The notes beneath the pieces are model-generated. The model ran no database searches. It worked only from the letters and a program-made list of their open reading frames with translations, and had not been told where the DNA came from. DNA of 62,858 nt from a virus: positions 1-62,858 of IMG/VR virus record IMGVR_UViG_3300031974_002723; one strand, given 5' to 3'. The position numbers were made by a program, and so were the translations under genes. Shown here in pieces: positions 1,040 through 38,392 of this stretch; position 1 is the first letter of the stretch; each line of letters opens with the position of its first letter.

Positions 1040-1071
1040 CAAAGTTACAACGATTGTTTCTTATTTCCAAA
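1040..1071 (-). promoter_or_regulatory. Early promoter (TTTG-20-TAACTTTG)
   Basis: Read on the minus strand, TTTG (1068-1071) is separated by 20 nt from TAACTTTG (1040-1047), matching the Bacteroidota consensus of -33 TTTG and -7 TAnnTTTG. The bases after the -7 box (TCCACG) recur in the promoter at 2066-2097. It drives the gene starting at 1013. Confidence 0.8.
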
Positions 1072-1072
1072 T

Positions 1073-1318
1073 TTATTTTGCCTCCTCTTTAGAGGAGAGT
1101 TCTTGTGCGTTCATGTTTGCTTGTGCGAGGATCCGTTCCATGTCATACACGGAGTAGTCAGCCTCCCTAATGTTCTCAAGCTGGGCGGCTACAGCGTACC
1201 ACATCCGTGCGTGAAGCGGGTCGGATACGTCCTTCCAATTCTGGATGCACATGTCGATGAGTTGCTCGACCATGGCTTTGTGTGTGCGGTTCACGTCCGC
1301 TTCTGTGTACTTGTTCAT
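1073..1318 (-). CDS. Early hypothetical protein, 81 aa
   Basis: Unrecognised. I choose the ATG at 1318 (MNKYTEADVNRTHKAM) because it lies 5 bp after the stop of the 1324-2025 gene. The longer in-frame reading to 1438 overlaps that gene entirely and is rich in unlikely residues. The protein looks all-helical, with a repeated hydrophobic pattern (MVEQLIDMCIQNW, MWYAVAAQLENI). Its stop codon is packed against the -33 box of the next promoter at 1068-1071. Confidence 0.75.
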   Translation of the reverse strand: MNKYTEADVNRTHKAMVEQLIDMCIQNWKDVSDPLHARMWYAVAAQLENIREADYSVYDMERILAQANMNAQELSSKEEAK

Positions 1319-1323
1319 GTCTT

Positions 1324-2025
1324 TCAGATTTCGGTGGTGATGCTTCCCTCGCGGTTGTACACGAGGCGCTTGCAATTTTGTACAGGGAAGTAGTGGGTGC
1401 AAGAGTCGTCGAGGTCCACCATCGTGTCTTGAGGCCACTCAAGGCTACGCACCACATCTGCAAGGCAGTCGTAGCAGTAGATGAGGCTGTCAGTGTACAC
1501 TCGGTCCCAGCCTCCGTGGTTGGTCACGTCGTACCACTTGGCCTTGATGCGCTCCACCTCAAGGGAGATACCCTCCTCTGCCATGCGGATGGCGGTGGAC
1601 TTGTGTGTGATGGTGCGGACCATGTCGTCCATCTGGTCGTAGACCACGACCCCGTCACCGAGCATCACCCCGTCATACACTTGGATGAAGAGGGTGTGGA
1701 AGCCCCAATCGTCGATGTCTTCGGGGTCGATGGTGTCGCTGAACTTAGGGGTCAGTCTGACCCACGCACCATGCGGGTGCTCCTCGATGTCGTAGCGAAC
1801 GAGGTCTCTCTCTGTACGCTCGGTCATGTTTTCGATTCGCTCGGTGTAGTACTCCAAGCGGTCGTGTGCCCACTGGTCGATGTACTCCTCGACCATGGCC
1901 TTGGCGAGTTCAGGGGCGGCTACGTCCTCGACACGGCGGCAGGTGGTTTCGGAGTAGCCCTCGTTCATGCCACCGATGGAGTCGATGACGAAGTAGTGGG
2001 GTGCGGTACGCAGGTTAGTGTTCAT
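1324..2025 (-). CDS. Early hypothetical protein, 233 aa
   Basis: Unrecognised soluble protein and one of the largest left-arm genes. Visible features are a helical acidic middle (YTERIENMTERTERDL) and a C-terminal half with several cysteines. I see no catalytic motif I can name. It is expressed from the promoter at 2066-2097, through a leader of about 40 nt ending CTCACACCCATG. The 81-residue gene follows after 5 bp, probably in the same transcript. Confidence 0.75.
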   Translation of the reverse strand: MNTNLRTAPHYFVIDSIGGMNEGYSETTCRRVEDVAAPELAKAMVEEYIDQWAHDRLEYYTERIENMTERTERDLVRYDIEEHPHGAWVRLTPKFSDTIDPEDIDDWGFHTLFIQVYDGVMLGDGVVVYDQMDDMVRTITHKSTAIRMAEEGISLEVERIKAKWYDVTNHGGWDRVYTDSLIYCYDCLADVVRSLEWPQDTMVDLDDSCTHYFPVQNCKRLVYNREGSITTEI

Positions 2026-2065
2026 GGGTGTGAGTTTTGAATGTTGTTGGCTGAATTGCCGTGGA

Positions 2066-2097
2066 CAAAGTTAAGGCAAATGTTCCTATCTACCAAA
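2066..2097 (-). promoter_or_regulatory. Early promoter (TTTG-20-TAACTTTG)
   Basis: Minus-strand TTTG (2094-2097), 20 nt spacer and TAACTTTG (2066-2073), followed by TCCACG exactly as at 1040-1071. Both promoters also share TTTGG at the -33 element. It drives the 233-residue gene at 1324-2025. Confidence 0.82.
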
Positions 2098-2120
2098 TTT
2101 ATTTTCTAAGTGGCTGACTT

Positions 2121-2396
2121 TCAGCACTCTTTGCTTCGGGTGAGCAGGTCGTTGAACCTGTCGTCCTCGCCGTCCGTGCGCTCAAGCGCCCAGTCAAGGA
2201 CAGCATCGAACCCGTGGATGGTTTGGTTCGGGCGGCGGTGACGCTCAAGGTCAGACTCACGCACCCACCGCTCTACACGGATGGGACGGCCAAGGTCCAT
2301 GGCGTGGTCGAGGTGGTCCGCGAGGTCATCGAGGATGTTGCTATCGTTGCGCTGATAGATGTCGCCGTTGGCGGCGTGGATGAGGTAGGTACACAT
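2121..2396 (-). CDS. Early hypothetical protein, 91 aa
   Basis: Unrecognised. The start reads MCTYLIHAANGDIYQRND, and the protein is rich in Asp, Arg and His, acidic overall and without a membrane segment. Its ATG overlaps the stop of the upstream 50-residue gene as TGATG, so the two are likely translationally coupled. It ends just upstream of the promoter at 2066-2097. Confidence 0.72.
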   Translation of the reverse strand: MCTYLIHAANGDIYQRNDSNILDDLADHLDHAMDLGRPIRVERWVRESDLERHRRPNQTIHGFDAVLDWALERTDGEDDRFNDLLTRSKEC

Positions 2397-2548
2397 CAGT
2401 CCGTGTATTTGAGGGTGGTTGCGATTGCATCGCCCAGCACCTTGCCGAGCGGGTTGATTTCTGAGCCTTCAGAGGCAGGTACGGCGAGGAAGAACATCTC
2501 CGCCAGCATCAGTGCCTGTTGCACCTTTTGGATTTCGTCTTGTGTCAT
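2396..2548 (-). CDS. Early hypothetical small protein, 50 aa
   Basis: Begins MTQDEIQKVQQALMLAEMFF. The first half is an amphipathic helix, and a hydrophobic stretch (MFFLAVPA) lies near residue 20. The ATG at 2548 is preceded by a CA-rich spacer (AACACACACAAACAC) directly after the stop of the 27-residue gene. The stop overlaps the start of the next gene (TGATG). Family not recognised. Confidence 0.62.
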   Translation of the reverse strand: MTQDEIQKVQQALMLAEMFFLAVPASEGSEINPLGKVLGDAIATTLKYTD

Positions 2549-2563
2549 GTGTTTGTGTGTGTT

Positions 2564-2647
2564 TCAGTCGGCGATGAGAACGAATACGAGGAGGCCCATC
2601 ATAATGAGCGGCCCGCAAAAGGCCTGAAGGAATCCGATTTCTTCCAT
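2564..2647 (-). CDS. Early tiny membrane protein, 27 aa
   Basis: The reading frame MEEIGFLQAFCGPLIMMGLL... ends in one hydrophobic segment that would span a membrane, with acidic ends. It fills the space between the zinc-ribbon gene and the 50-residue gene, with CA-rich spacers on both sides (CACAGACATG in front). Gene spacing and composition support it, but nothing shows its function. Confidence 0.55.
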   Translation of the reverse strand: MEEIGFLQAFCGPLIMMGLLVFVLIAD

Positions 2648-2654
2648 GTCTGTG

Positions 2655-2936
2655 TCAGTCGAAGCTGTATCCGCACTCAGGGCAGAAGGGGTGAACGTCA
2701 GTGTATTCAGGACTTGCATCGCAGTCAGGGCAATCGACCTCGTACACGCACACAAGATCCGTGAACTTTGTGGGGCCGCGCTTGTCTGACTCGTCCGTGG
2801 GGAGGAACTCGTCGAGGGTCTGCATGACCGAATCAACGGCGGTGTGCAGGGAGTCATCGGCCTTGTATCCGAGGCGGCGGAGGATGCGGACAGCGAGGTC
2901 ACGCTTGAAGTCTTCGTAGTTCTGTGTGTTCTTCAT
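2655..2936 (-). CDS. Early zinc-ribbon protein, 93 aa
   Basis: The C-terminus carries two Cys pairs, CPDC (about residues 69-72) and CPEC (about 85-88), spaced as in a small zinc ribbon. The N-terminal 55 residues are helical and charged. Such proteins often bind nucleic acid or protein partners. The ATG lies close behind the stop of the 166-residue gene with a spacer ending CAGACAGACATG. Zinc binding is inferred from the Cys pattern. Confidence 0.72.
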   Translation of the reverse strand: MKNTQNYEDFKRDLAVRILRRLGYKADDSLHTAVDSVMQTLDEFLPTDESDKRGPTKFTDLVCVYEVDCPDCDASPEYTDVHPFCPECGYSFD

Positions 2937-2947
2937 GTCTGTCTGTA

Positions 2948-3448
2948 TTAGAGGGTGATTTCCTTGCTGTTTTCAATGCTGTAGATGGCCTTCTCTCCGC
3001 GCTCCCTACCGAGTGCCTTTGCCACGGAGATGTCCTCCACGAGGGTGGTCACGTCGAAGACGATGTCCTCGCCATCCACCCAAGTGCCGACACACAGGGG
3101 GTGCTGTGGCATCCATCCGTGTTCGTAGGCGGCGGCCCAAGTCTTCTCGAAAGCCCGCTTGAACTCCCTGAACAGGACTTGTGGGTGCTTAGAGTCGAGG
3201 TAGCCCTCGGCGATGTCTTCCCGAAGCTCCACCATGGACAGGCGGACTTCAGGCACACAGCCACCGACTGCGTGACCCCAACAGGGGCGCCAAGGGTCGG
3301 TCGGGAGGTCATTGTAGTTCAGGGTTCCAGCCATGTAGGTGTACACCATGTGGCCTGGTGTGAGCAGGATGGTGTCTCCGCCGTCAGCGAGGGTGCGGCC
3401 ATAGGACTCAGCGATGAGGCTGAAGTGGGGGTATTCGAAAGTCTTCAT
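2948..3448 (-). CDS. Early hypothetical protein, 166 aa
   Basis: Unrecognised soluble protein starting MKTFEYPHFSLIAESYGRTL. It has a Trp/Cys-containing middle (WRPCWGHAVGGC) and a C-terminal acidic helix, with no membrane segment. It is first in the transcription unit that begins at the promoter 3498-3530, with a leader of about 45 nt ending CTCACACACATG. Confidence 0.75.
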   Translation of the reverse strand: MKTFEYPHFSLIAESYGRTLADGGDTILLTPGHMVYTYMAGTLNYNDLPTDPWRPCWGHAVGGCVPEVRLSMVELREDIAEGYLDSKHPQVLFREFKRAFEKTWAAAYEHGWMPQHPLCVGTWVDGEDIVFDVTTLVEDISVAKALGRERGEKAIYSIENSKEITL

Positions 3449-3497
3449 GTGTGTGAGTGTTTTGAATGTTCGACTGAGGTGGTGTCGAATCGGACCG

Positions 3498-3530
3498 CTA
3501 AGTTAAGCACATCGACTCCACATTTCCAAA
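3498..3530 (-). promoter_or_regulatory. Early promoter (TTTG-21-TAACTTAG)
   Basis: Minus-strand TTTGGAAA (its TTTG at 3527-3530), 21 nt spacer, then TTAACTTAG with the -7 box TAACTTAG at 3498-3505. It resembles the two other left-arm promoters but has one mismatch in the -7 box (TTAG for TTTG). It lies upstream of the 166-residue gene. Confidence 0.62.
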
Positions 3531-3539
3531 TCTAATTTC

Positions 3540-3716
3540 TTACCCTTTAGGGTAGATTGCTTCGAAGGCCTCTTGTTGGCGGGCCATCTGTTCCACTTCC
3601 GTGTCTGTGTACACCACGCAGTCGCCACACGGGAGGCGGAACACGGACGAGCCGAGGGAGGTGAACAGGGGTTCTGCGCTGAGGTAGGCCGCCGCCTTCA
3701 GGATGTCAATCATCAT
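3540..3716 (-). CDS. Early hypothetical small protein, 58 aa
   Basis: Starts at a double ATG (MMIDILKAAAYLSAEPLF). An earlier TTG at 3722 is in frame but less likely. There is a short Cys pair (PCGDC), a helical acidic C-terminus and no membrane segment. A CA-repeat spacer separates it from the 108-residue gene. Family not recognised. Confidence 0.65.
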   Translation of the reverse strand: MMIDILKAAAYLSAEPLFTSLGSSVFRLPCGDCVVYTDTEVEQMARQQEAFEAIYPKG

Positions 3717-3743
3717 GTGCAATCGATCTTGTGTGTGTGTGTG

Positions 3744-4070
3744 TCAGTCGCGAGGCTTCGTCCACCATGTGGTGTCCATGCCTGTCCAAGGGAAGTAGGT
3801 CCCAAGTTGGAGGATGGGGGTTGACGCGGCTGTGTCTGTGAGCCACTTCCAATCCTGCATCCACTGCTCCCGAAGGGAGTCTTCCGTGTCTGTGTCTGCG
3901 GGTGAGGCCTTGTAGACCTTGTAGCGACCCCATCCGTCTGCGTAGACGTTCCATCCCCTGTGCATGACAAGGTGGATGATGGCCTGTTCGAGATTCCACG
4001 AAGTGGTGGGGACGATGAGCCAAGCGGTGGCTTCCTGTTGGGTGGTGAGTGTGTCTGTCATGTCTGTCAT
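3744..4070 (-). CDS. Early hypothetical protein, 108 aa
   Basis: Begins MTDMTDTLTTQQEATAWL. Rich in Trp (at least eight, including WMQDWKWL and TTWW) and Thr, and soluble. The Trp-rich C-terminus is unusual for a small early protein. The leader carries AACACACAAACACATG. A tRNA-like hairpin lies between this gene and the one upstream. Family not recognised. Confidence 0.7.
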   Translation of the reverse strand: MTDMTDTLTTQQEATAWLIVPTTSWNLEQAIIHLVMHRGWNVYADGWGRYKVYKASPADTDTEDSLREQWMQDWKWLTDTAASTPILQLGTYFPWTGMDTTWWTKPRD

Positions 4071-4084
4071 GTGTTTGTGTGTTT

Positions 4085-4127
4085 GAGCGCAGGGTGGAAT
4101 CGAACCACCCCAAGCACCATGTGCGCT
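4085..4127 (-). other. tRNA-like minihelix (acceptor stem plus T arm only)
   Basis: On the minus strand, AGCGCA (4122-4127) pairs with TGCGCT (4086-4091), stacked directly on a T-arm-like hairpin: stem GGGTGG/CCACCC and loop TTCGATT, which is a canonical T-loop. About 12 nt (CATGGTGCTTG region) replaces the D and anticodon arms, and no 5' half is present upstream. It fills a gene spacer. It may be a decayed tRNA or a structured RNA element in the early transcript. Confidence 0.55.
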
Positions 4128-4137
4128 TGTCTGTGTG

Positions 4138-4452
4138 TCACGCCTTGACGTGGCGGTTGAATGCAGGGTCCATCGTACTGGACAGTGTGTGTGGATACAC
4201 CTCCACGGCGTAGCTAAGCATGGCGTTCAAGACCTTCCGCATTTCCCACAGCTCTGCCTGTGTGTTCCATCGGGCGCCAATCGTCCTGTCTGTGAGGCGT
4301 TGCTTCCGTTCGAGTTGCTCCACCTTGTCTGCGGCAAGCCTAATGCAGGCACCGCACAGGAAGGGGTCTTCGTGAAAGATGCCGTAGAGGTAGTCAGCGG
4401 CCTTGGACGTGAACTCCATAGGAGTCGGGGAGGGGAGAGAAAAATTCATCAT
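4138..4452 (-). CDS. Early hypothetical protein, 104 aa
   Basis: I start at the double ATG at 4452/4449 (MMNFSLPSPTPMEFTSKA), directly after the CA-rich spacer AACACACAGACAC that follows the previous stop. It contains a Cys pair (FLCGACIRLAADKVEQL) opening a long amphipathic helix with heptad-like spacing. Unrecognised family. Confidence 0.7.
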   Translation of the reverse strand: MMNFSLPSPTPMEFTSKAADYLYGIFHEDPFLCGACIRLAADKVEQLERKQRLTDRTIGARWNTQAELWEMRKVLNAMLSYAVEVYPHTLSSTMDPAFNRHVKA

Positions 4453-4465
4453 GTGTCTGTGTGTT

Positions 4466-4612
4466 TCAGTGTGTGTTTGCGAGTTCCTTGTAGTACTCGA
4501 TGTTTTCTTTTGCAATCTGCTTTGCAGCCTCTGTGCGTGAGTGTTGCAGGAGTTGCTCGTGGAGGCGAATCTGCTTGTGGCAGTAGTCCCGAAGGGAGAG
4601 CTTAGCTTTCAT
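4466..4612 (-). CDS. Early hypothetical small protein, 48 aa
   Basis: Begins MKAKLSLRDYCHKQIRLHEQ. The whole protein looks like one long charged helix. The upstream spacer repeats the arm's signature (AACACACAGACACATG). In-frame extension beyond 4612 would read through the neighbouring gene in a low-complexity frame, so the internal ATG is chosen. Function unknown. Confidence 0.65.
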   Translation of the reverse strand: MKAKLSLRDYCHKQIRLHEQLLQHSRTEAAKQIAKENIEYYKELANTH

Positions 4613-4637
4613 GTGTCTGTGTGTTTCTGTGTGTGAA

Positions 4638-5261
4638 TCAGAGGCAATCGTCGAGGCTGATTTCGTCAGCGGCAACGCCGTATCCGTCCTGCAGAGCGGC
4701 CCACCGAACAGCGTCCTCAAGCTCCAACCCCGCAGGAACTTCGGAGAAGTCGCACCAGGTCTTGCGGATGACGTGAGCCTTGGCAGGGTTCTTGACCTCG
4801 ACCTCGACCTCCTTGCGGCGGTTGGTGGCCTCATCCCAAACCACGTCAACCTTGGGGGCGGTTTTCGCGGCTCGCTTCTGTGTGTTGGCCATGGACTGCT
4901 TCTGAGCCTGAGCCTCCAACTTGCCGTTGCTGTCCTTCGGACCTTTGCGGGCCTTACGCTTGAGGGACTTGGCGGCGACGGACTCCGTCTTGACCTCCAT
5001 CGGCTTTGCCGCCATGCGGATGACAGGCTTGGTGTGTGTCTGTGACACGGAGTCGTAGACAGCTTGGATGGCGGCGGCCTTCAGCTTGTCGGCCTTCTTT
5101 GCCACCTTGGTGGCCTTGCGAGGCTTCTTAGCCTCCCACACAGACAAGGCCTTGCGGTCGGCCTTCTCAGCGGCCCAAAGAGCCTTGTTAGCGGCCTTAC
5201 GGCCTTCGAGGGTGAGCGTCAGCTTCTGAGAAGCGGTGAGGGTGTAGGTCATGTTTGCCAT
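4638..5261 (-). CDS. Lys/Ala-rich early protein, 207 aa
   Basis: Starts MANMTYTLTASQKL (ATG 5261, with a second ATG at 5252). Residues about 30-160 are dominated by Lys and Ala in patterns such as KKPRKATKVAKKADKLKAAA, reminiscent of histone H1-like or nucleoid-associated tails, followed by an acidic, hydrophobic C-terminal domain ending ISLDDCL. It is the first gene transcribed leftward from the strand switch, from the promoter at 5303-5336. A DNA-binding or host-nucleoid role is an inference from composition only. Confidence 0.72.
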   Translation of the reverse strand: MANMTYTLTASQKLTLTLEGRKAANKALWAAEKADRKALSVWEAKKPRKATKVAKKADKLKAAAIQAVYDSVSQTHTKPVIRMAAKPMEVKTESVAAKSLKRKARKGPKDSNGKLEAQAQKQSMANTQKRAAKTAPKVDVVWDEATNRRKEVEVEVKNPAKAHVIRKTWCDFSEVPAGLELEDAVRWAALQDGYGVAADEISLDDCL

Positions 5262-5302
5262 GAGGTGAGTGTTTGAAGCCTCAGCGACGTTGCCGAGGAC
5301 CA

Positions 5303-5336
5303 CAAAGGTAGTGGATAGCTTGGGATAAATCGCAAA
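5303..5336 (-). promoter_or_regulatory. Early promoter (TTTG-22-TACCTTTG), head of the left arm
   Basis: Minus-strand TTTG (5333-5336), 22 nt, then TACCTTTG (5303-5310). It sits at the edge of the strand-switch region and reads into the 207-residue gene at 4638-5261 through a leader of about 40 nt ending CACTCACCTCATGGC. Confidence 0.72.
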
Positions 5337-5374
5337 TTTGAAGGGGGAGAATCTTCCTGCGCGATTTCTGCGCC

Positions 5375-5385
5375 CGCATTATGCG
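5375..5385. repeat. Operator-like palindrome CGCATTATGCG, copy 1
   Basis: An 11-bp palindrome (CGCAT-T-ATGCG) that recurs exactly at 5720-5730 and with small changes at 5420-5430, all inside the strand-switch spacer. Confidence 0.55.
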
Positions 5386-5419
5386 CATGGAAACAGGCGC
5401 TGAAGATTGGCGTGATGCA

Positions 5420-5430
5420 CGCATGATGCA
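5420..5430. repeat. Operator-like palindrome variant CGCATGATGCA
   Basis: Nine of eleven bases match the palindrome copies at 5375 and 5720. It lies 45 bp from copy 1 and could be a weaker site for the same factor. Confidence 0.4.
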
Positions 5431-5719
5431 GACACACACACAGGAGGCCTTGGTTCTGCCGTTTGGTGGATGGGATGAACGTGAATCGACGAAGCCCTAG
5501 CGAAGCGAAGCTTGGTGCGCAAAACCATGTGTGATTCGGCGTGTATAATGCAAGCGGAATGGAGTACGGTTTCGTGTGTGGAGGATTGGGGGTGGGATTG
5601 TCTCCCCTGTCGCTACTGCTATCGGCTACAGATTCGCTTCAATCAGTACTCCATCTGAACAGCTACAACGCATTGGCTACCAGCAAGATAGCAAAACGCT
5701 GAATGTTTTGGCGACGGTG

Positions 5720-5730
5720 CGCATTATGCG
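5720..5730. repeat. Operator-like palindrome CGCATTATGCG, copy 2
   Basis: Exact second copy of the 11-bp palindrome at 5375-5385, 345 bp away in the same non-coding spacer. Confidence 0.55.
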
Positions 5731-5959
5731 TAGGGTCGGGGTGCGGGAATGCGTTTGGGTGTGTGCGCGCGAGCGTCACGTAGTACGTATAATCCCCCAG
5801 ATCTGTATTACTCCACTCATTTTTAAGCGGGTAATCTGTTCTAACACAACAAATTAGCTTGGATGCGTTAGAATCTTACTCAAAGACTTGCATATGTCAA
5901 AAATCCGCTGTAACTTCGCCTAGCAGCTCAGCGCTATGATGGACAGTCGAGTTGCGATA

Positions 5960-6004
5960 AGCTTCTGAGAAGGTTTTTTGGAGTTGGAGAGGGAGTCAGA
6001 AGCT
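5960..6004. repeat. 9-bp inverted repeat before the first late promoter
   Basis: AGCTTCTGA (5960-5968) and TCAGAAGCT (5996-6004) are perfect inverted copies with a 27-nt G/T-rich centre. The repeat ends 33 bp before the TATATTTG at 6037, so it could be a regulator site or a hairpin. It is not followed by a T tract. Confidence 0.55.
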
Positions 6005-6036
6005 GTTTTGCTGTGCAGGCGCAAGGACTATCTTGT

Positions 6037-6044
6037 TATATTTG
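6037..6044 (+). promoter_or_regulatory. Late promoter TATATTTG, 4 nt before ATG
   Basis: A consensus Bacteroidota -7 box with no TTTG at -33. The ATG at 6049 begins 4 nt after the box, at the expected start of transcription. Confidence 0.68.
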
Positions 6045-7238: not shown

Positions 7239-7246
7239 TATATTTG
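7239..7246 (+). promoter_or_regulatory. Late promoter TATATTTG, 4 nt before ATG
   Basis: TATATTTG overlaps the stop of the transglycosylase gene. The ATG at 7251 follows after CGTC (4 nt). No TTTG at the -33 position. Confidence 0.68.
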
Positions 7247-8420: not shown

Positions 8421-8799
8421 CGACCCTCAGATCACAAACCTAAAGCTTGTAGCAGAGCATGTCTTTCAACCTCTCAGAGATCACTTTGGAGTCCCGATCT
8501 ACGTCTCATCAGGATACAGGTCGCCGAAACTCAATTCTTCAATCGGTGGGAGTGCTACTTCTCAGCATTGCCAAGGCCGCGCTTTGGACCTGGATGCTGA
8601 TGTCTTCGGTGGGGTAAGCAATGCAGAGATTTTCCACTATATCAAAGACTGCTTGGATTTCGATCAGCTCATATGGGAGTTTGGTGATGACACCAATCCC
8701 TCATGGGTTCATGTCAGTTACAACTCCCCCACTGAGAACAGAGGGAGAGTCATGCGGGCTGCCAAGGATGGCGTCGGAACATATTACAAACTCTGGTAA
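8338..8799 (+). CDS. M15-type peptidase endolysin, 153 aa
   Basis: Zinc peptidase that should cut the peptide side chains of peptidoglycan (D-Ala-D-Ala carboxypeptidase / L-Ala-D-Glu endopeptidase type). The M15 signature is complete: SSGYRSPKLN (57-66), H77 and D84 in SQHCQGRALD, and the second zinc ligand H125 in SWVHVSY. The length is normal for a one-domain M15A enzyme. No signal peptide, so release needs a holin; candidates lie far downstream at 48069 and 49887-50469. Its 3' end overlaps a convergent minus-strand gene by 16 nt. Confidence 0.86.
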   Translation: MRLSKNLTLQECTKSLTAKRLGLENQPDDPQITNLKLVAEHVFQPLRDHFGVPIYVSSGYRSPKLNSSIGGSATSQHCQGRALDLDADVFGGVSNAEIFHYIKDCLDFDQLIWEFGDDTNPSWVHVSYNSPTENRGRVMRAAKDGVGTYYKLW

Positions 8800-9200
8800 A
8801 AGCGCTGGACGAGGAGCCTAGCCCTTTGCGTAAGCGCGTACCTAACTCTATAGTTGTACTTGGTCTCTTCTCTGAAGAGGTGATCATCGAGCGATTGTGA
8901 CGGCGTTAGCCTTTCGAAGTGCTTGTACAGGAGTTCCTCTGACTGCAAGGGGTATATGATCCTGTTCGCCATGTTGCTGCGGTTATACTGATACTGTTCA
9001 GCGGCATGGTCTATGGTAAAGAATTCTAGGTCGTAAGCCCACAGGAGGAACTCCAAGTGCTTCCAGTCAATATCATGGTGCTCGCAGAAGTCCTTCCTAA
9101 CAGAATGTAGATTCTTGAGGTAATTGTTGTTGATGTACTTCTCTTTCAGTTTAGAGAAGTCCCTGAACATGCGCTTCTTGGACACTTTTGACTTAGGCAT
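8784..9200 (-). CDS. Winged-helix (MarR-like) DNA-binding protein, 138 aa
   Basis: The only minus-strand gene inside the 46-kb late block. After a basic N-terminus (MPKSKVSKKRMF) the middle reads like a winged helix-turn-helix: LEFLLWAYDLEFFTIDHAA, then a recognition-helix-like NRSNMANRIIYPLQ, then a wing with YRVRYALTQRARLLVQRFY. It faces away from the 9220 gene, whose promoter overlaps its upstream region, and converges on the endolysin. A regulator of late or lysis genes is plausible. I saw no promoter of its own. Confidence 0.68.
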   Translation of the reverse strand: MPKSKVSKKRMFRDFSKLKEKYINNNYLKNLHSVRKDFCEHHDIDWKHLEFLLWAYDLEFFTIDHAAEQYQYNRSNMANRIIYPLQSEELLYKHFERLTPSQSLDDHLFREETKYNYRVRYALTQRARLLVQRFYQSL

Positions 9201-9215
9201 GATTACTTATCTTTG
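9187..9215 (+). promoter_or_regulatory. Late promoter TTTG-17-TATCTTTG, 4 nt before ATG
   Basis: TATCTTTG (9208-9215) precedes the ATG at 9220 by 4 nt. Here a TTTG (9187-9190) is present 17 nt upstream, so this late promoter may keep a -33 element. It overlaps the start region of the divergent winged-helix gene. Confidence 0.62.
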
Positions 9216-10612: not shown

Positions 10613-10742
10613 TCATACCTTGAGGACGGGGGATTTTGATTGGCAGCGTCATGAAACCATGCTGAATAAGAGAATGAATATTATCGGCAGCAATGGAAAT
10701 GACGGGTATCACTACTGGGAGGACAGTTGGAACGAAGAGTAA
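10551..10742 (+). CDS. Small late hypothetical protein, about 63 aa
   Basis: The reading frame runs MEKSKKTKTTQADSQRSS and ends in an aromatic acidic tail (GYHYWEDSWNEE) that looks selected. The start is unsure because the first third overlaps the preceding gene in another frame; a TTG at about 10620 is an alternative. It overlaps the start of the secreted-protein gene. Confidence 0.42.
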   Translation: MEKSKKTKTTQADSQRSSASDHTLRTGDFDWQRHETMLNKRMNIIGSNGNDGYHYWEDSWNEE

Positions 10743-11988
10743 AGGAGTTCTACTTGCTCTTTATATTGGTCTTTCTCTTGGCTCTGCGGCTCAGTGTGAC
10801 CTTGAGCTTGTAGGTGTAGACCTTATCGAAGGGACGGTAACGGTATCGTTCAACAACACTGAGAACTGTGGTGGCACAGGCGGACCCGACGGAATTTCTG
10901 AGATCCAGTTCGGGTTTCAGGCTTTAGACGAGAACTGCAACGCCATGAATGTCGGGTGGGACTTCCCGTCTGGCGTTTCTATTCCTGACGACTCGAATCA
11001 TCCTGGATGGGTGTACTCTGCTACTACTACGGAGACACCTAGCAACTGGACAAACCTGTATGGCGATGATATTGATCCCCCGTATTATACTGGTGAGGTT
11101 ATAGACTTCCCTATCTACAATGTGTACCAATCTTCATCTGGAGGTTTGTGGTACCAGATGGAGGATATCCTTGGATATTGGATTGACGAGGGGTATAGCA
11201 TACAAGTTGTTATTTGGCAGATCAGCTATGGCCCCACCATGTATGCTGAAGACGGTGGGTGGGCTGAGGTAGGACCCAACGGAGACGGGAGCAGCTGGGG
11301 GAGCGGGGTCTATGACGACGAGAACTTCCTTGACAACTGGGTTGTGATTGGTCCTTGTGGGGAGTGTGTCCCAGAGGTTGTAACGGATACGGTTTACGTA
11401 GACCTCCCTGCAGATACAGTAACCGTCTTTGAATCAGATACGATCATTCAGTATGATACCACATACACTTACATAACGGACACGTTGTACCTCGTCGATG
11501 TGGACACTTCATATATCACTTTAATCGACACCGTCTATCTTACTGATTATCAAACTGATACCGTCATTGTCGTTGACATAGACACTTCATATATTAGTTT
11601 AACTGACACCATATACGTTACTGAGTATCAAATAGATACAACGAGTGTATATGAATATGACATGGTTGAAGTTGACTGCAGTACAGGTCAGCCATGTGTC
11701 AGTCCGTTCTCTGATTGCTCTATATACATACCGAACTCTTTTACCCCTAACAACGATGGGGTGAACGATGTATGGGGAGCCGAGACGGACTCTTTTTGTT
11801 GGGCGAGCTGGAGAATGAAGGTGTTCTCAAGGACTGGCGAACTGGTATGGGAGAGTTACGATCCAGATGATATTTGGCTTGGTGGAGACGAGTACTATGT
11901 CCCTAACGACATGTATATTTACAGAGTGGAATGTGAGGGATACGGGGAGTCATACATCATAAACGGTCACGTGACCATTATCAGATAA
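10699..11988 (+). CDS. Secreted protein with T9SS type B sorting domain (CHU_C-like), 429 aa
   Basis: The N-terminus has a basic stretch, a hydrophobic core and a signal-peptidase-like site (VLLALYIGLSLGSAAQ/C, about 17-32). The last ~87 residues match the gliding-motility-associated CHU_C domain used as a type IX secretion signal: YIPNSFTPNNDGVNDVWG, then MKVFSRTGELVWES, then NGHVTIIR at the very end. Between them lie a Trp/Gly-rich domain with paired Cys (about 35-230) and Thr/Asp repeats (about 237-333). A host secretion system would export it, and a virus-encoded cargo is unusual. Roles could be surface display, receptor masking or superinfection exclusion. It sits in the late block, not in a cargo island. 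Confidence 0.8.
   Translation: MTGITTGRTVGTKSKGVLLALYIGLSLGSAAQCDLELVGVDLIEGTVTVSFNNTENCGGTGGPDGISEIQFGFQALDENCNAMNVGWDFPSGVSIPDDSNHPGWVYSATTTETPSNWTNLYGDDIDPPYYTGEVIDFPIYNVYQSSSGGLWYQMEDILGYWIDEGYSIQVVIWQISYGPTMYAEDGGWAEVGPNGDGSSWGSGVYDDENFLDNWVVIGPCGECVPEVVTDTVYVDLPADTVTVFESDTIIQYDTTYTYITDTLYLVDVDTSYITLIDTVYLTDYQTDTVIVVDIDTSYISLTDTIYVTEYQIDTTSVYEYDMVEVDCSTGQPCVSPFSDCSIYIPNSFTPNNDGVNDVWGAETDSFCWASWRMKVFSRTGELVWESYDPDDIWLGGDEYYVPNDMYIYRVECEGYGESYIINGHVTIIR
11494..11649 (+). repeat. Two tandem 78-bp repeats inside the secreted-protein gene
   Basis: Copies at 11494-11571 and 11572-11649 encode 26-residue units beginning VD[VI]DTSYI[ST]L and containing DT[VI]Y[LV]T[DE]YQ. The units differ mostly by conservative changes, and less perfect units precede them. 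Such Thr/Asp beta-stalk repeats are typical of Bacteroidota surface proteins ahead of a sorting domain. Confidence 0.75.
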
Positions 11989-12751: not shown

Positions 12752-14846
12752 GATTATTCGGTTGGACAGCGCAGGTGAGCCTGGTGAGGTTATTTCGATC
12801 CACGGTCTTGACATTGCTCTTCCGAAAGTTCCAAAGAAGTCAGACATCCTCTTCCACGACCTCCCAAAGAAGTTGCAGATGTGGAAGCGCACCGATGTGC
12901 CACAGGAACTGTCGCGGGTTAGAAGTATGGATGAGTGGTTCGAGAAGCCTGCCGAGTTTCGACGCGCCTTTTCTCCTTACATCGAGCAGGAGTTTGAGCG
13001 CAGGCGCAACGGTGTTTGGTTTTACAACAATGGTGTGCCTACGTACATTACGGGAAGGCACTACATGTTTCTCCAATGGAGCAAAATCGATATCGGATAT
13101 CCTTCGTATCTTGCCTTCCAGCGTGAGATCTTTCTTCACATGGCTGCGTGCGAGGCTGATCCCCGTTGTATCGGTCAGCTATATACTAAGTGTCGCCGTT
13201 CTGGCTATACTAATATCTGTGCCGCTGTACTTGTTGACGAAGCTACGCAAGTAAAAGACAAGCTCCTTGGTATCCAGTCCAAGACTGGTAAAGACTCCCA
13301 GGAGAACATATTCATGAAGAAAGTGGTACCGATGTTCAAGTCGTACCCATTCTTCTTTAAACCTATTCAGGATGGCACGACGAACCCACGTATGGAACTC
13401 GCTTTTCGGGAACCATCAAAACGAATCACGAAGAAGAACAAGACGTCGCAGAAGGGCGATGCTCTCAACACAATCATCAACTGGAAGAACACCACAAACA
13501 ACGCCTACGACGGAGAAAAGCTCCATATGCTCTACCTCGACGAGGCTGGGAAGTGGGAGAAGCCAGTTGACATCAGAGAAGCCTGGCGAATTGAGCGGAC
13601 TTGTCTCATCGTTGGTAAGAAAATAATTGGTAAGGCCCTGGTGGGGTCTACCGTAAACCCAATGGATAAAGGTGGGGAAGAGTACAAAGCGCTTTGGGAA
13701 GATTCAGACCCTGCTGAACGCAATGCCAACGGAAGGACCAGGAGCGGTCTTTACCGTATTTTTATACCTGCTGATCACGCTCTTGAAGGGTTTTTTGATC
13801 GCTACGGCAACCCTGTTGTGGATGATCCTGATGCTCCGATAGAGGGTGTTGATGGCGAACCAGTCGATCAGGGCAGCAACACTTACCTCAAGAACGAGCG
13901 GGACAGCCTCAAGCATGACCCGTCAGAACTGAACGAGATTATTAGGCAGTTCCCGTTGACTGAAGATGAGGCGTTCAGGGATAGTATCGAGGGGAGTCTA
14001 TTCAACATCGGTAAGATCTACCAGCAGATAGACTGGAACAACAATCTCTACCCAAACCCAATTGTAAGAGGCAACTTCATTTGGAAGGAGAAAGACAAAG
14101 AGGTCATCTTCTCTCCAGACCCTAGGGGTAGGTTCAGGGTAGCATGGCAGCCACCAGCAGAAATGCGGAACAAGATTCATGAGGTTAGGGGCAAGAAGGT
14201 ACCACCTTATTCACAATTCGGTGTTGGTGGAGTAGACTCCTATGACTTGGACCAAACAGTGGATGGCAGAGGATCTAAAGGAGCTATGCACCTGTTCAAT
14301 AAGTTCAACATGAACGACAAGGTCCCTAGCAACATGTTTGTGTTGGAGTATGCCTCTAGGCCAGACTTAGCAAGCATATTCTACGAGGACGTACTGATGG
14401 CTGCGTTCTATTATGGTTACCCGCTTTTGATCGAGAACAATAAGTACGGTATCGTAAGGTATTTTGAATCAAGGGGTTACGACGGATATGTGATGGACAG
14501 GCCTGATCACTTGAAGACAGGTAATTCTAAAGTGAGTGTCAGAACGAAGGGCATCCCGTCGAACTCTCAAGACGTGATCCAGGCTCACGCTCATGCTATT
14601 GAGGCCTATATCCACAACCACGTAGGGATAAAGCCAGAAACAGACGACTTCGGGAATATGTATTTTAATGATACGCTAGAAGACTGGATCGGGTATAAAA
14701 TCACCAATAGAACCAAATACGACCTTACGATTAGCTCTGGTCTGGCACTGCTTGGGGCTCAGAAGGTTAAGGACAATAGGCCGAAGTCTAACCTATCCGA
14801 AAAGACCTTTTTCAGGAAGTCTAAGATAAAAGAGTGGCATCGCTAA
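12735..14846 (+). CDS. terL: Terminase large subunit, 703 aa
   Basis: ATP-driven motor and nuclease that packages DNA through the portal. I start at the ATG at 12735 (MDRSDEIIRLDS). The longer frame to 12666 overlaps the zinc-ribbon gene. The Walker A region is degenerate (TKCRRSGYT, 151-159), while Walker B is clear (LHMLYLDEAG, D269/E270). The segment LVGSTVNPMDKGGEEY followed by RTRSGLYRIFIPA is characteristic of crAss-like phage terminases as I remember them. The RNase H-like nuclease begins at VGGVDSYD (first Asp 501). The portal gene follows after 21 bp with its own promoter. Confidence 0.93.
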   Translation: MDRSDEIIRLDSAGEPGEVISIHGLDIALPKVPKKSDILFHDLPKKLQMWKRTDVPQELSRVRSMDEWFEKPAEFRRAFSPYIEQEFERRRNGVWFYNNGVPTYITGRHYMFLQWSKIDIGYPSYLAFQREIFLHMAACEADPRCIGQLYTKCRRSGYTNICAAVLVDEATQVKDKLLGIQSKTGKDSQENIFMKKVVPMFKSYPFFFKPIQDGTTNPRMELAFREPSKRITKKNKTSQKGDALNTIINWKNTTNNAYDGEKLHMLYLDEAGKWEKPVDIREAWRIERTCLIVGKKIIGKALVGSTVNPMDKGGEEYKALWEDSDPAERNANGRTRSGLYRIFIPADHALEGFFDRYGNPVVDDPDAPIEGVDGEPVDQGSNTYLKNERDSLKHDPSELNEIIRQFPLTEDEAFRDSIEGSLFNIGKIYQQIDWNNNLYPNPIVRGNFIWKEKDKEVIFSPDPRGRFRVAWQPPAEMRNKIHEVRGKKVPPYSQFGVGGVDSYDLDQTVDGRGSKGAMHLFNKFNMNDKVPSNMFVLEYASRPDLASIFYEDVLMAAFYYGYPLLIENNKYGIVRYFESRGYDGYVMDRPDHLKTGNSKVSVRTKGIPSNSQDVIQAHAHAIEAYIHNHVGIKPETDDFGNMYFNDTLEDWIGYKITNRTKYDLTISSGLALLGAQKVKDNRPKSNLSEKTFFRKSKIKEWHR

Positions 14847-14852
14847 CTTTGC

Positions 14853-14860
14853 TATATTTG
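14853..14860 (+). promoter_or_regulatory. Late promoter TATATTTG before the portal gene
   Basis: TATATTTG lies 7 nt before the portal ATG. A second overlapping -7-like box (TAACTTTG, 14844-14851) contains the terminase stop codon. No TTTG at -33. Confidence 0.65.
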
Positions 14861-23670: not shown

Positions 23671-23678
23671 TATATTTG
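23671..23678 (+). promoter_or_regulatory. Late promoter TATATTTG, 5 nt before ATG
   Basis: TATATTTG followed by TAGTC and the ATG at 23684. No TTTG at -33. Confidence 0.66.
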
Positions 23679-26402: not shown

Positions 26403-26410
26403 TATATTTG
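26403..26410 (+). promoter_or_regulatory. Late promoter TATATTTG before scaffold and capsid genes
   Basis: TATATTTG is followed 14 nt later by the ATG at 26425, with TTTAATTC just before the ATG, as also before the 29391 gene. The short leader makes this unit slightly different from the 4-nt promoters. Confidence 0.65.
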
Positions 26411-27532: not shown

Positions 27533-28927
27533 ATGTCTGCAATTGCTGCAAGTAAAGCAGGTGGTGTGACTCTGAGCGGTCATGCTGCCTCTCTGAAAAC
27601 CGCTCCCGACAAGTACATCTCGTTGGGAGATCTCCTTGATCCGACCAAGCCCGACAACAGGGACCTTTTGGTGAACACCTACGGTGACCAGGGCATCACT
27701 GGATTCCTCCAGCTGACTGGCGCTGTCCGTAACGGTGGTACCGCCGATGAGGTTCAGTGGTGGGAAGAAGGTCGTCTCCACAAGACGGCTTCCATCACCC
27801 TCGCTGCTGGTTCGGCTACTGGTCAAGGAACACTGACCACTTCTGACACGCTCCGTGCTAACGACGTCCTCCTGACTCAAGCTGGCGACCGCCTGGTTGT
27901 GATCGACCCGACGTCCGCAAGCACTGACAACGTCAAGACCCTGGACGGAACCGCTGTGAACGCCATCACTGTCGCTGAAGACGTTGCCATCATCGGTAAC
28001 ATCTACGCTCAGGGTACGTCTCAGCCGAGCTCCTTCTACCAGACGGAGGTCAACAAGATGATCAACCCGTACTTCATCACCAAGGAAACCTACCACGTGA
28101 CTGGTTCCCAAGCCACGAACATTGGCTGGATCAACGTTGGTAACGGTGACTACAGGTGGTACGTGAAGGGCGAGATGGACACTCGTAAGCGTTTCATGAA
28201 CCAGCGTGAGATGATGATGCTGTTGGGTCAGAACCCCGTCAACCCGATCGGTGGTACTCTCGACTCCACTGCTGACCTCACCCTGACGGACGGCACGACG
28301 AACCTCGGCAGCATTGCTGGTTCTGAGGGCTACTTCCAAGCTGTTGAGCGCAGAGGTATCACGACGACGGGCACGTTTGGTGACGGTGCTGGATTCGCTG
28401 ACATTGACGAGATCATCTTCGAGCTCGACAAGCAAGGCGCTCCTGCTGAGTACGCCATGTACGTTGACACGGCTACGTCCCTCGCTATCGACGACATGCT
28501 TGCTGCTGGTATCGCTACCCAGACCACTGCTGGTCTGCCTGGTCAGTTCGGAGCCTTCCAGAACAGTGCCGACATGGCCGTTCAGCTTGGCTTCAAGAGC
28601 TTCTCCAGAGGTAGCTACACCTTCCACAAGCACGGTTGGAAGCTCCTGAGCGACCCGACCCTCCTCGGTGCGTTCACGAACAAGCCGTACAAAGGTGCTA
28701 TGGTTCCGATGACGCAGGTTGCTGACGCCAAGACTGGTGTTAAGTCCCCTGCTCTGGAGATGAACTACAAGGAAGTGAACGGCTACGGTCGTGAGCTTGA
28801 GCACTGGGTGGAAGGCGGTGGCGTCCTCGGATTCGCTACCAACGACCAGGACGTGGCTAAGTTCCACTACCGTTCTGAGGCCAACCTCGTGACCCGCGCT
28901 GCTAACCAGCACGTGGTGCTCACCTGA
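27533..28927 (+). CDS. Major capsid protein (crAss-like), 464 aa
   Basis: Forms the head shell (HK97 fold expected). Starts MSAIAASKAGGVTLSGHAAS. The segment GDYRWYVKGEMDTRKRFMNQ, followed by REMMMLLGQNPV, resembles crAss-like capsid proteins as I know them. It has a Gly/Thr-rich insertion around residues 65-130 and no obvious prohead protease site. Codons look optimised (CTC, CGT, AAC), unlike the AGR-rich neighbours. A hairpin follows the stop. Confidence 0.88.
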   Translation: MSAIAASKAGGVTLSGHAASLKTAPDKYISLGDLLDPTKPDNRDLLVNTYGDQGITGFLQLTGAVRNGGTADEVQWWEEGRLHKTASITLAAGSATGQGTLTTSDTLRANDVLLTQAGDRLVVIDPTSASTDNVKTLDGTAVNAITVAEDVAIIGNIYAQGTSQPSSFYQTEVNKMINPYFITKETYHVTGSQATNIGWINVGNGDYRWYVKGEMDTRKRFMNQREMMMLLGQNPVNPIGGTLDSTADLTLTDGTTNLGSIAGSEGYFQAVERRGITTTGTFGDGAGFADIDEIIFELDKQGAPAEYAMYVDTATSLAIDDMLAAGIATQTTAGLPGQFGAFQNSADMAVQLGFKSFSRGSYTFHKHGWKLLSDPTLLGAFTNKPYKGAMVPMTQVADAKTGVKSPALEMNYKEVNGYGRELEHWVEGGGVLGFATNDQDVAKFHYRSEANLVTRAANQHVVLT

Positions 28928-30223: not shown

Positions 30224-30249
30224 AAAGGCCGCCTTCGGGCGGCTTTTTC
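30224..30249 (+). terminator. Rho-independent terminator
   Basis: GCCGCC-TTCG-GGCGGC (30228-30243) with a stable TTCG loop and a following TTTTTCTTTTC tract, in the classic form. It sits directly upstream of the next TATATTTG promoter. Confidence 0.85.
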
Positions 30250-30255
30250 TTTTCG

Positions 30256-30263
30256 TATATTTG
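30256..30263 (+). promoter_or_regulatory. Late promoter TATATTTG, 4 nt before ATG
   Basis: TATATTTG + TCTC + ATG (30268). The -33 position falls in the terminator stem, so no TTTG there is possible. This is the cleanest example of a late unit with a leaderless start. Confidence 0.7.
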
Positions 30264-31014: not shown

Positions 31015-31832
31015 TGGCTAGGAACTACGTAACACTCGAACAGGTCGTAAATGACTTCATACTCACCCTAGACACGGATGACTATGCAAGCAGCGCTTCT
31101 GATTTCGCGATCAGAAGTTTTGCTCTTAGGGGGGTTCGTGAGATGGGGTTTGATCTTCTCAAGGTCATCAGGTCTTTGAAGCTGTCCGTTGACGCTAACA
31201 ATACTTCCACTCTCCCTGACGATTATGTGGATTGGTCTAAGATCGGTCTTGTGGGTAGTGATGGGTTGGTCTACGTACTTGGCGAGAACAAGAACATCAA
31301 TTATTCTCAGAAGTACTCTACTTCCAATGGGAATACTTACGATACGGACGGTGATGGACTTCTGGATAGGGAGGACGACAAGACGGCTACTTCTGGTGCT
31401 GGCAATGTCAACGATCTCGGAGACGGCATGGAGTCCTATATCTTCAGGAACTACATCTACGAAAACGATCACGGTCGTCTCTACGGAATTGGTGGGGGTC
31501 AATATCACGGCGAGTTCAGGGTAAACCTGGATCAGAACAGAATCGAACTCAAGACCAATACAAACGTGTCTGAGATCGTTATTGAATACGTGGCAGACGA
31601 AGGAAGGGCAACCAACCCTCAGGTTCACGTTTATGCAGAGGAAGCCTTGAGGGCTTATATCTACTACAAGATCATTGAGCGGAAGTCTTCTGTTCCCGCA
31701 AGCGAGAAGGCCAGGGCCAGACAGGAGTACTACAACGAGCGCAGGAAAGCCAATGCTCGCATGAAGTCCTTTACGAAGGAGGAGGCCCTCAAGACGATTC
31801 GTAAGAACTACAAGCAAGCACCTAAGGGCTAA
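31014..31832 (+). CDS. Head-tail connector protein candidate, 272 aa
   Basis: Starts MARNYVTLEQVVNDFILTLD. It contains an EF-hand-like DTDGDGLLDRED near residue 110, suggesting a calcium-stabilised loop. The C-terminus is basic and helical (KSFTKEEALKTIRKNYKQ). Position after the adaptor and before the large tail protein fits a second connector ring. Confidence 0.68.
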   Translation: MARNYVTLEQVVNDFILTLDTDDYASSASDFAIRSFALRGVREMGFDLLKVIRSLKLSVDANNTSTLPDDYVDWSKIGLVGSDGLVYVLGENKNINYSQKYSTSNGNTYDTDGDGLLDREDDKTATSGAGNVNDLGDGMESYIFRNYIYENDHGRLYGIGGGQYHGEFRVNLDQNRIELKTNTNVSEIVIEYVADEGRATNPQVHVYAEEALRAYIYYKIIERKSSVPASEKARARQEYYNERRKANARMKSFTKEEALKTIRKNYKQAPKG

Positions 31833-34800
31833 TGATCGATAAGACTTTCCCGAACAGACTACAGACTGATACCGATCAGAAGTATGTGCGCCCAGAGGTG
31901 GGGGAGATGGTGGACGCTCAAAACGTCACTATCTCTGAAGGGGGTACGAACTCTGGTGGAGTCATTAAGAACGTTAGGGGTACGACAGCAGCCACTGCAA
32001 CGGCAGAGAATAGGATTGTAGACGGAGACGCCTTTACAGTTATCGGTAGCGTCTCAGATCCTCAGCGTGGATACATATACTGGTTTGTTTCCGACGATAG
32101 CGGGAACACAGAGGACGCCATTTACAGGCAGGATGTAAGCGACAACACTTACGAGATTGTCATTAAGAGCACTGCTCTGAACTTCAGGTCTACTGATTTC
32201 GTCAAGGCTGACGTTGTAAATGCAGCGTTCCAGCAGGACGATGTTGTGCAAACAGCACTGTTCTTTACGGACAACTACAACCCACCTAGAAAAATCAACG
32301 TCGATAGAGCCATCAATGGTGACTACGACGGCATTACACTGAACAGTCAGGTTCACAACCTTGGTGACGCCATCTCCACGGTCAAAGCGGCTGAAACCAG
32401 GAACCCGACCTTCTACTTCTCTACAGACGAAGACATCCAGGGGAATAAGTTCGTCAATGCTGCATATCAGTTTGCTACGCAATATGTGTATCGGGATGGC
32501 GAGGTTTCTGCTATCTCTCCATACTCCCCATTGGCCGTCTCCGCTGCAGCGGCACTAAGGAATCAAGAGGGCGATGACTCTGCGTCTCTCGCCCCGTACA
32601 CTCAAAATGTATGTGAGGTAACCCTGAATGTAAACCCTGTTTTGCCAGATATGGCTGAGGTTAGGCTTTTGGCTAGAGAGGGGAATAATGGGGCTTTCTT
32701 TATCGTTGATCAGTTTGATCCGTCTCAGGACATTTCAAGAAACGTCTACGGCACGAACAAAGACGTCTTCAATGCCGCTACGCAGATATATAGGTTCTAT
32801 AATGACAGGAACGGAGCCCTGATATCTCAGGTTGAGGTCAACAAGCTGTACGATAACGTTCCTTTCCTTGCTGCTGGACAAACAGTGGCAAGCAGCAGGC
32901 TTATGTACTCCAACTACACGGAGGGTAGAGCCAACATAGACATTTCAAACCCAGCTACGTTTACTGTAAACTACTCTGAAGCGTCTGTAGCTGGAAGGGA
33001 AGTGATGAATACTGCTGATCACTCTGCGGACACGCTGACTCAGCAGGCACTTACAGATATAGACGTACTCATAGACCTTCTTGCTGCAAGCGGTCCTATG
33101 GACGGGCTCTTGACTTCGGGGACTGCAGTTTCTACGACCCCAGTCCCGATCGGCACTCTACTCAACATCGGGTTTGATTTCGCTCCTACGCTGACCTTGT
33201 CTAGGTCTACGGCTACCGACCTGTGCTCTGTAGATGTGACTCAAATCGACGACTCTACTGGAGTTCAAACCAATGGGACCCTGAACTTCGATGAGCTTGT
33301 GCTTGACACAATTGCTGCTGAATCGACTAGCCATTCGGTTCTCATCAACATTACTACTGGAACCGCCACTACTGTATCTGGTTTGGCTTCGCTGATAATA
33401 GATGAGCTCGAAGAAATCCAGGACGTACCCGTTGTTTACGACCTTTCTTCTACTCAGGCAAGTAGCGTAGTCGGGGGTGTTTCGTCACTTTCGACCATTT
33501 CTGGAAACGTCACTGTATACTACAATTTCGAGGAGTTCGACCAGACCGAGGGGAACTCGACGGTGTCTATAAAACCAGTTGTTAGTAGAATAGACTTTAG
33601 TGAGTGTTTCTATGATACTGGAGGGGACTCCACGATGTTTGGTAGCACCGAGGATGAAGTCAACGTACTTATTGGGACCCCCACTCAGGCTCAGTTTTCG
33701 TTCACCAGCGTGGGTGCCACCTACCTGACTGAAAAGAGGACAGAGATGTCCATAGTGAACGTCAATGGATCGTTCAAGGCTGGATGCTCTCACTCCTTCG
33801 GGATTGTATTCTACGACAGATTCAATAGGTCTGGTAACGTCCAGGAGCTTGGTAGCGTATATGTAGACGCGCTCCCAGAGAGGTCGAGTGGATATGGACC
33901 AGCGTCTATAACCATTGACTTTGCTAACGCCTTTGCCAGTGCTGTACCAGACTGGGCTGTTAGGTACCAGATCGTGTACCCTGGAAGGTCTTCTATCGGG
34001 GATTTCACACAGTACACAGTGGGGGGTGGATACAGGGCCCTCAAAAAAGACACTGACGGAGACTACACTGGAACGGCTGCAGATAGCAATTCGAAAAGGA
34101 TATACGTATCCTTAAAGAATCTTGACCTCTACCAAGAGGAGAAAGGCGCGACCAGGGAATACTCTTTCACTGAGGGCGATAAGCTCAGGGTCATAAAGGG
34201 AAGAGACGCAACAGACTCAGCAGACGAGTACTACACTGCAAGCGATTCAACAATCATTGAATTTGATGTCGTTGGCGTAGAAATTCTGAGTGGTACGATC
34301 GGCGACAACCCAATAGAAGCTACAGCAATAGGGTCTGAACACAAAGGAACCTTTATTGTCTTGGAGTGCCCCGCAATCAATTCTGGGGCCAACGGGACGG
34401 ACGGGAATCCGCTGACATACACTGGCTTCGATTGGGACGATATGGCCACCAACAACTACTGGGATAGAAACATAGTTGTTGAAATCTACTCTCCGAAGTC
34501 AGAACAAGAGAATAAGGTCTATTATGAGATTGGTCATGGCGGTAGAGTTGGAGCCAGAAAAGACCCTCTTGTAAACGAGCTTGGAGACGAGATAACCGTT
34601 ACAAACGGCGATATTTTTGTCAGGCCAATATCTTGTAAATCAGTTCATTACTCGGCTGGATGGAAATCTGACGTGCCTGAAGACTGGCCTTACGAAACGC
34701 TACCTCTTGAGAGCTCTTCTTGGACTGATGCAAAGTCTGTAACCGACTGGCACAGAGGCAGGGCTCACGTCATCTTTGAGGAGGCCGCAGAAGTGAGGAG

Positions 34801-36146: not shown

Positions 36147-36154
36147 TATATTTG
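36147..36154 (+). promoter_or_regulatory. Late promoter TATATTTG, 4 nt before ATG
   Basis: TATATTTG right after the stop of the tail gene, then TATC and the ATG at 36159. Confidence 0.68.
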
Positions 36155-38384: not shown

Positions 38385-38392
38385 TATCTTTG
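38385..38392 (+). promoter_or_regulatory. Late promoter TATCTTTG before the giant gene
   Basis: TATCTTTG with a leader of 18 nt that includes AGAGGT just before ATG, one of the few places with a Shine-Dalgarno-like string. Confidence 0.58.

Follow-up and report, generated by a model that had tools for sequence, protein, structure and literature searches.

How does a phage whose genes lie in two divergent blocks mark the promoters of one block as distinct from those of the other? We considered this question for IMG/VR virus record IMGVR_UViG_3300031974_002723, whose whole length of 62,858 nucleotides (nt) is the window analysed here. On the minus strand, from 5.3 kb down to 0 and then from 62.8 to 52.5 kb, are small genes along with genes for replication (exonuclease, primase/helicase); those for terminase, portal and virion proteins occupy 6.0 to 52.5 kb of the plus strand. 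The labels early and late, for minus and plus strand respectively, were assigned from this gene content alone. An initial annotation had described four minus-strand promoters with TTTG at -33 and isolated late-strand -7 boxes, proposing the unmodified host sigma factor for early genes and, for late genes, dependence on a phage factor that takes the place of the -33 contacts. Our analysis supports the existence of two promoter classes, and we think it probable that they represent two combined designs of promoter and leader: a full, leadered promoter of the type read by sigma-ABfr, the ordinary host sigma-A, for early genes, and a -7-only promoter, leaderless or nearly so, for late genes. Leadered early versus leaderless late mRNA is likely the main difference between the classes, one that the initial annotation overlooked.

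Early promoters

All four minus-strand promoters were located, with spacers of 20–22 bp between TTTG and the -7 box (Table 1). The pattern TTTG N20-22 TA[AC]CTTNG occurs four times in the window; 100 dinucleotide shuffles averaged 0.15 occurrences and never exceeded 2. The sites agree with the published sigma-ABfr consensus in both elements, -33 TTTG (4/4 sites, about 20 bp from the box) and -7 TAnnTTTG (exact at 3/4). The expected form of the -7 box thus holds at 1040, 2066 and 5303 and fails at 3498, where the box is TAACTTAG, one base off TTTG. This match supports reading of the early genes by the host's own sigma-A, as far as sequence can indicate it. The promoter at 5303 is kept in relatives G010 and G013, and in G004 without its TTTG; the TAACTTAG box is identical in G004 and G013; the promoter at 2066 is kept in G004, G010 and G013; and that at 1040 has a close copy in G001. 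TCCACG does directly follow the -7 box at 1040 and 2066, as had been noted, but these cassettes also share AAAATAAATTTGG, TAACTTTGTCCACG and some leader letters, so the two copies may be duplicates rather than independent events.

Relatives of the phage have the same early promoters in the same divergent layout. TTTGN19-23TANCTTTG was found in 10 of 18 records, confined to one strand in each. When boxes were picked regardless of TTTG, early regions from eight phages, the window among them, yielded 37, nine of which were TAAATTTG sequences serving as the -33 element for the box that follows. TTTG stood at a spacer of 20–23 in 26 of the remaining 28; the two misses were G004 15143 and G010 293. 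Leadered candidates chosen by -7 sequence and ATG distance alone had TTTG at spacers of 20–22 in 26/139 cases, compared to an expectation of 1.9 taken from other spacers; p-values for this comparison treat the sequences as unrelated.

We collected 30 non-redundant early sites; one of them, G010 46090 (minus), lies on the late strand, possibly by chance. Twenty-six boxes end in TTTG and four in TTAG, and the fourth box base is C in 28/30. The gap from box to ATG is 19–53 nt (median 40), and the leaders are 36% A and 33% C, with 4% G in their last 18 nt. Early spacers vary across sub-families in both sequence and length (20–23), while TTTG and TANCTTNG are constant. The spacer sub-families TTTGGAAWTGTSGAAT and TTTGGTRGATAYRAACATTTG each recur, a pattern that may reflect either an operator or shared descent. 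Short hairpins (e.g., ACCCTAAAGGGT and CTCCTCTAAAGAGGAG) were noted just 5' of AAAATAAATTTGG in about half of the 30 promoters, at 1082–1097 and 3541–3554 in the window; their sequence is variable, their pairing is conserved, and no T-tract follows.

Late boxes

In the window TATATTTG occurs 7 times against 0.7 expected, and TATATTTGNNNNATG 4 times against 0.01 expected. Close relatives provided 86 non-redundant late boxes at 3–8 nt before the ATG of an open reading frame (ORF) of at least 40 aa, 75 of them TATATTTG. Gaps from box to ATG were 4 nt in 54, 5 in 14 and 7 in 16, with 3 and 8 once each and 6 never; 68/86 therefore have the -7 box 4–5 nt before the start codon that is expected of a leaderless promoter, and gap 7 adds 16/86. 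Identical flanks were merged in these counts; the 86 boxes come from the close clade, omitting divergent loci L024–L031, L033–L035 and L068–L079. With gaps of 0–60 nt considered, 100 of 187 TATATTTG-to-ORF pairs (redundant) were at 4, 5 or 7.

A held-out set of 80 loci, obtained later for a different gene (ORF minimum 35 aa), gave 58 new TATATTTG boxes, 57 of them on the late strand. An ORF-starting ATG lay within 13 nt of 28/58, at gap 4 in 22 and gap 5 in 6 and at no other gap, so that all 28 of these have the box placement expected of a leaderless promoter. TTTG at a spacer of 20–22 was found upstream of 0/70 late sites (from part of the first-scan loci, L068–L075 omitted) and 0/28 held-out sites; at spacers of 18–19 it was found in 3/28 held-out sites. 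It is this absence from late boxes, set against near-universal -33 TTTG in early boxes, that supports two classes, and the contrast first drawn with isolated TATATTTG boxes holds. A further feature of late boxes is a T four bases upstream, in 82% of cases among close relatives and 89% in the held-out set.

Nine close phages have TATATTTGNNNNATG at 58 per Mb, and 148 Bacteroidota genomes have it at 1.0 per Mb (reversed-pattern control 0.65). The named phages phi38:1, elemoE and Panino, together with four divergent relatives (seven phages in all), have 5 in 445 kb, or 11 per Mb, above hosts and far below the close clade. Divergent loci nevertheless share the gaps, with 15/18 boxes of gaps 0–8 at 4, 5 or 7. 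This combination of shared gaps and low density suggests that the habit is probably older than the close clade and weaker outside it.

Two local arrangements recur. At 30225–30263 a terminator-like hairpin and T-tract (GCCGCC TTCG GGCGGC TTTTTCTTTT) abuts the TATATTTG box, a fusion conserved in many relatives. Several relatives (L109, L111, L121, L134 and others) have a leaderless TATATTTG promoter a few bases past an apparent tRNA 3' end. In an Rfam scan, tRNAs were the only hits. Ahead of the portal gene, at 14844–14860, TAACTTTG and TATATTTG stand in tandem, one base apart.

Predicted transcripts and host promoters

At many promoters of Flavobacterium johnsoniae, TAHHTTTG is separated from the start site by 4 or 5 nt (PMC6847099). 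With this spacing, a box-to-ATG gap of 4–5 would place the start at the AUG, and a gap of 7 would leave a leader of 2–3 nt; the start sites proposed here derive from it. Unmodified host polymerase would read the sigma-ABfr-type early promoters (TTTG, 20–23 bp, TANCTTTG) and fire the minus-strand operon, starting 4–5 nt past the box to give an A/C-rich leader of roughly 15–49 nt. Late transcription, directed by a -7-only element (TTnnTATATTTG) 4–7 nt ahead of the start codon on the opposite strand, would start at the AUG or within 0–3 nt of it, giving leaderless or nearly leaderless mRNA. Host sigma-A polymerase probably reads both classes, and a phage regulator may set their order. Box sequence, spacing, conservation and strand are direct readings of the DNA; we infer the polymerase and the regulator, and the timing is suggested by gene content.

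Host promoters were sampled from 800 kb of three Bacteroidota genomes, giving 151 boxes near long-ORF starts. TTTG stood 20–22 bp upstream in just 4/151, and in F. johnsoniae the -33 motif is likewise described as weak and far less evident (PMC6847099). Most sampled host promoters thus do without TTTG, which makes a missing -33 ordinary; it is the early class, not the late, that is unusual in keeping one. A gap of 4 was found in 10/151 sampled boxes, a minority that speaks for the same geometry with host polymerase. Leaders exceed 10 nt in 87% of predicted F. johnsoniae transcripts (PMC6847099), 5.5% are leaderless in F. psychrophilum (PMC9723704), and about 3.7% of 5' untranslated regions are under 10 nt in Bacteroides thetaiotaomicron (PMC7366714).

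Relative to sigma-ABfr promoters, then, the phage early sites match both elements and the late sites the -7 element only. The early -33 is near-constant in the phages, yet F. johnsoniae (PMC6847099) and the three sampled genomes show it weakly or not at all; the late class lacks it and has its -7 mostly fixed as TATATTTG. For leaderless mRNAs in Flavobacterium and Bacteroides the box stands 4–5 nt before the ATG, as in the late class, but such mRNAs are a minority there, whereas the leaderless form, by predicted start, is the commonest late promoter form in the phage.

Alternative readings

The proposal that a phage protein must take over the -33 role at late -7-only promoters, which would be silent in uninfected cells, was not borne out in its main argument, and we regard it as rather unlikely. 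The lack of a -33 in most sampled host promoters, and similarly in F. johnsoniae (PMC6847099), removes the main ground for such a factor, and sigma-70 region 2 (PF04542) was found in none of six phages searched. Sigma region 4-like PF08281 gave sub-threshold matches only, in two of the six, so that a phage sigma factor, sought with these two profiles, was rejected for want of any match above cut-off. What leaves room for a phage factor is the strict late box and its T at -4, which is found in 31–46% of sampled host boxes. There are also precedents for late promoters of a single element. T4 late promoters work with gp55/gp33 and have one element just 5' of the start site, with nothing equivalent to a -35. 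Late promoters of phiEco32, which use a phage sigma (PMC8948821), are built likewise, as is the late class here; but no sigma-like gene was found in our six phages, and their late element coincides with the -7 consensus of the host itself. Late promoters of phiKZ (TATG, with G as the start site; PMC5312081) place their element at the extreme 5' end of the transcript, as predicted for our late class. That phage has its own multisubunit polymerase; here no RNA polymerase family of Pfam or PHROGs was found among the proteins searched, which included the 3222-aa and 1437-aa products but not all ORFs. A crude check of five large products for a D.D.D motif gave one site, in the 1437-aa product, and a divergent virion RNA polymerase is possible. 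The 1437-aa product (31832–36145) also has a crAss muzzle C-terminal domain (PF25729, E 1.1e-8).

A second alternative is that the early -33 TTTG is the end of another -7 box, TAAATTTG, about 28 bp upstream, making these tandem promoters. TAAATTTG indeed fits TAHHTTTG, and the nine such copies among the 37 early-region boxes are what this would predict. Yet TTTG lacks the preceding TA at 5303, where the -33 is CAAATTTG, and at the first promoters of G010, G009, G013 and G012, and spacing of 20–23 bp fits the published -33; we consider tandem promoters improbable. Recent cassette duplication and common descent could by themselves make early promoters alike, with no selection on the -33, and the letters shared by the 1040 and 2066 copies are of the kind expected. 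This is quite improbable, however, given sub-families whose spacers differ while TTTG and TANCTTNG persist. Finally, TATATTTG beside ATG has a ribosome-signal-like fixed distance from start codons, but as a translation or coding signal it is highly improbable, being the published -7 consensus at the distance of box to start site and often following a terminator-like hairpin or apparent tRNA end.

Several observations weigh against two designs of promoter and leader. The late-strand boxes at 26403 and 38385 are leadered, and 30/58 held-out boxes are not near an ORF-starting ATG (19 have none within 60 nt, and 11 have one at 14–41 nt). The -33 sequence TAAATTTG fits the -7 consensus too, at many sites. 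Late boxes are stricter (TATATTTG, T at -4) than sampled host boxes, which could reflect a phage-altered polymerase. The sampled host genomes are 32–36% G+C, compared to about 50% for the phage, and may not resemble the actual host. All of our counts are inflated by relatedness of the sequences.

A candidate regulator

The 138-aa product of the gene at 8784 is our candidate for the regulator that may order the two classes. Its AlphaFold model (mean predicted local distance difference test score 74.6) is a MarR-like winged helix, with MepR and NadR as best Foldseek matches (E about 1e-3, TM 0.52–0.63); it has no Pfam match. The product was found in G004, G005, G006 and G008–G013, more weakly in divergent G014–G016, and not in named phages; 173 stretches of the viral collection encode relatives, 80 of which were kept. 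The gene is oriented opposite to the late genes and has its start codon no more than 8 nt from the TATCTTTG box at 9208 on the other strand. A second candidate in the initial annotation, the Myb/helix-turn-helix-like 61434 product, was dropped as lead candidate, with no match at E<=1e-4 in the loci searched. We also rejected a single operator, GCGCATWATGCGC, which has two copies between the divergent operons with one mismatch each; its three matches in the window were reached in 3/100 shuffles.

Genome layout

The window is a virus record with an 81-bp terminal direct repeat. Its head protein (27533–28927) has relatives on 34 viral contigs at 47–78% identity and distant ones (about 28–30%) in phages of Flavobacterium, Cellulophaga and Maribacter. 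These distant relatives, along with a CHU_C type IX secretion signal domain in the product of 10693–11988 (Pfam PF13585, E 2.6e-11), point to a host that is probably a member of Bacteroidota. The region between the divergent operons has long blocks conserved in G004, G010, G013 and partly G006, and could be an origin, packaging or control region.

Table 1. Promoter elements and associated features mapped in the window
Feature	Coordinates	Strand	Remarks
Early promoter 1, -7 box TACCTTTG	5303..5310	-	predicted start ~5298; 41 nt to ATG at 5261
Early promoter 1, -33 TTTG	5333..5336	-	spacer 22
Early promoter 2, -7 box TAACTTAG	3498..3505	-	49 nt to ATG at 3448
Early promoter 2, -33 TTTG	3527..3530	-	spacer 21
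Early promoter 3, -7 box TAACTTTG	2066..2073	-	40 nt to ATG at 2025
Early promoter 3, -33 TTTG	2094..2097	-	spacer 20
Early promoter 4, -7 box TAACTTTG	1040..1047	-	26 nt to ATG at 1013
Early promoter 4, -33 TTTG	1068..1071	-	spacer 20
Divergent intergenic region between early and late operons	5337..6036	.	~700 bp without called gene
Late TATATTTG box	6037..6044	+	4 nt before ATG 6049; first gene of plus-strand cluster
Late TATATTTG box	7239..7246	+	4 nt before ATG 7251
MarR-fold protein, 138 aa, candidate regulator	8784..9200	-	conserved across clade
Late-type TATCTTTG box	9208..9215	+	4 nt before ATG 9220
Late TATATTTG box	14853..14860	+	7 nt before ATG 14868 (portal gene); kept in relatives
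Late TATATTTG box	23671..23678	+	5 nt before ATG 23684
Late TATATTTG box	26403..26410	+	14-nt gap to ATG 26425, short leader
Late TATATTTG box	30256..30263	+	4 nt before ATG 30268; after terminator-like hairpin; kept in relatives
Late TATATTTG box	36147..36154	+	4 nt before ATG 36159; kept in relatives
Late-type TATCTTTG box	38385..38392	+	18-nt gap to ATG 38411, leadered

Implications

Little turned up on promoters or temporal control of Bacteroidota phages and, in the portions of the literature available, nothing on promoters of this clade or on a switch from leadered early to leaderless late mRNA; leaderless mRNAs are reported as rare in the phylum. Bacteroidota do not use Shine-Dalgarno sequences. 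One speculative and very doubtful extension is that the phage shifts the mode of translation too, from leadered early to leaderless late, with ribosomes or initiation factors tilted towards leaderless AUGs; if true, this tilt would let late messages out-compete host and early messages late in infection. The two classes form a natural test set for two questions: how sigma-ABfr handles a promoter that has or lacks a -33, and how ribosomes that ignore Shine-Dalgarno sequences initiate on leaderless AUGs. Start sites and start codons of uncultured phages in the clade can also be predicted from the pattern.

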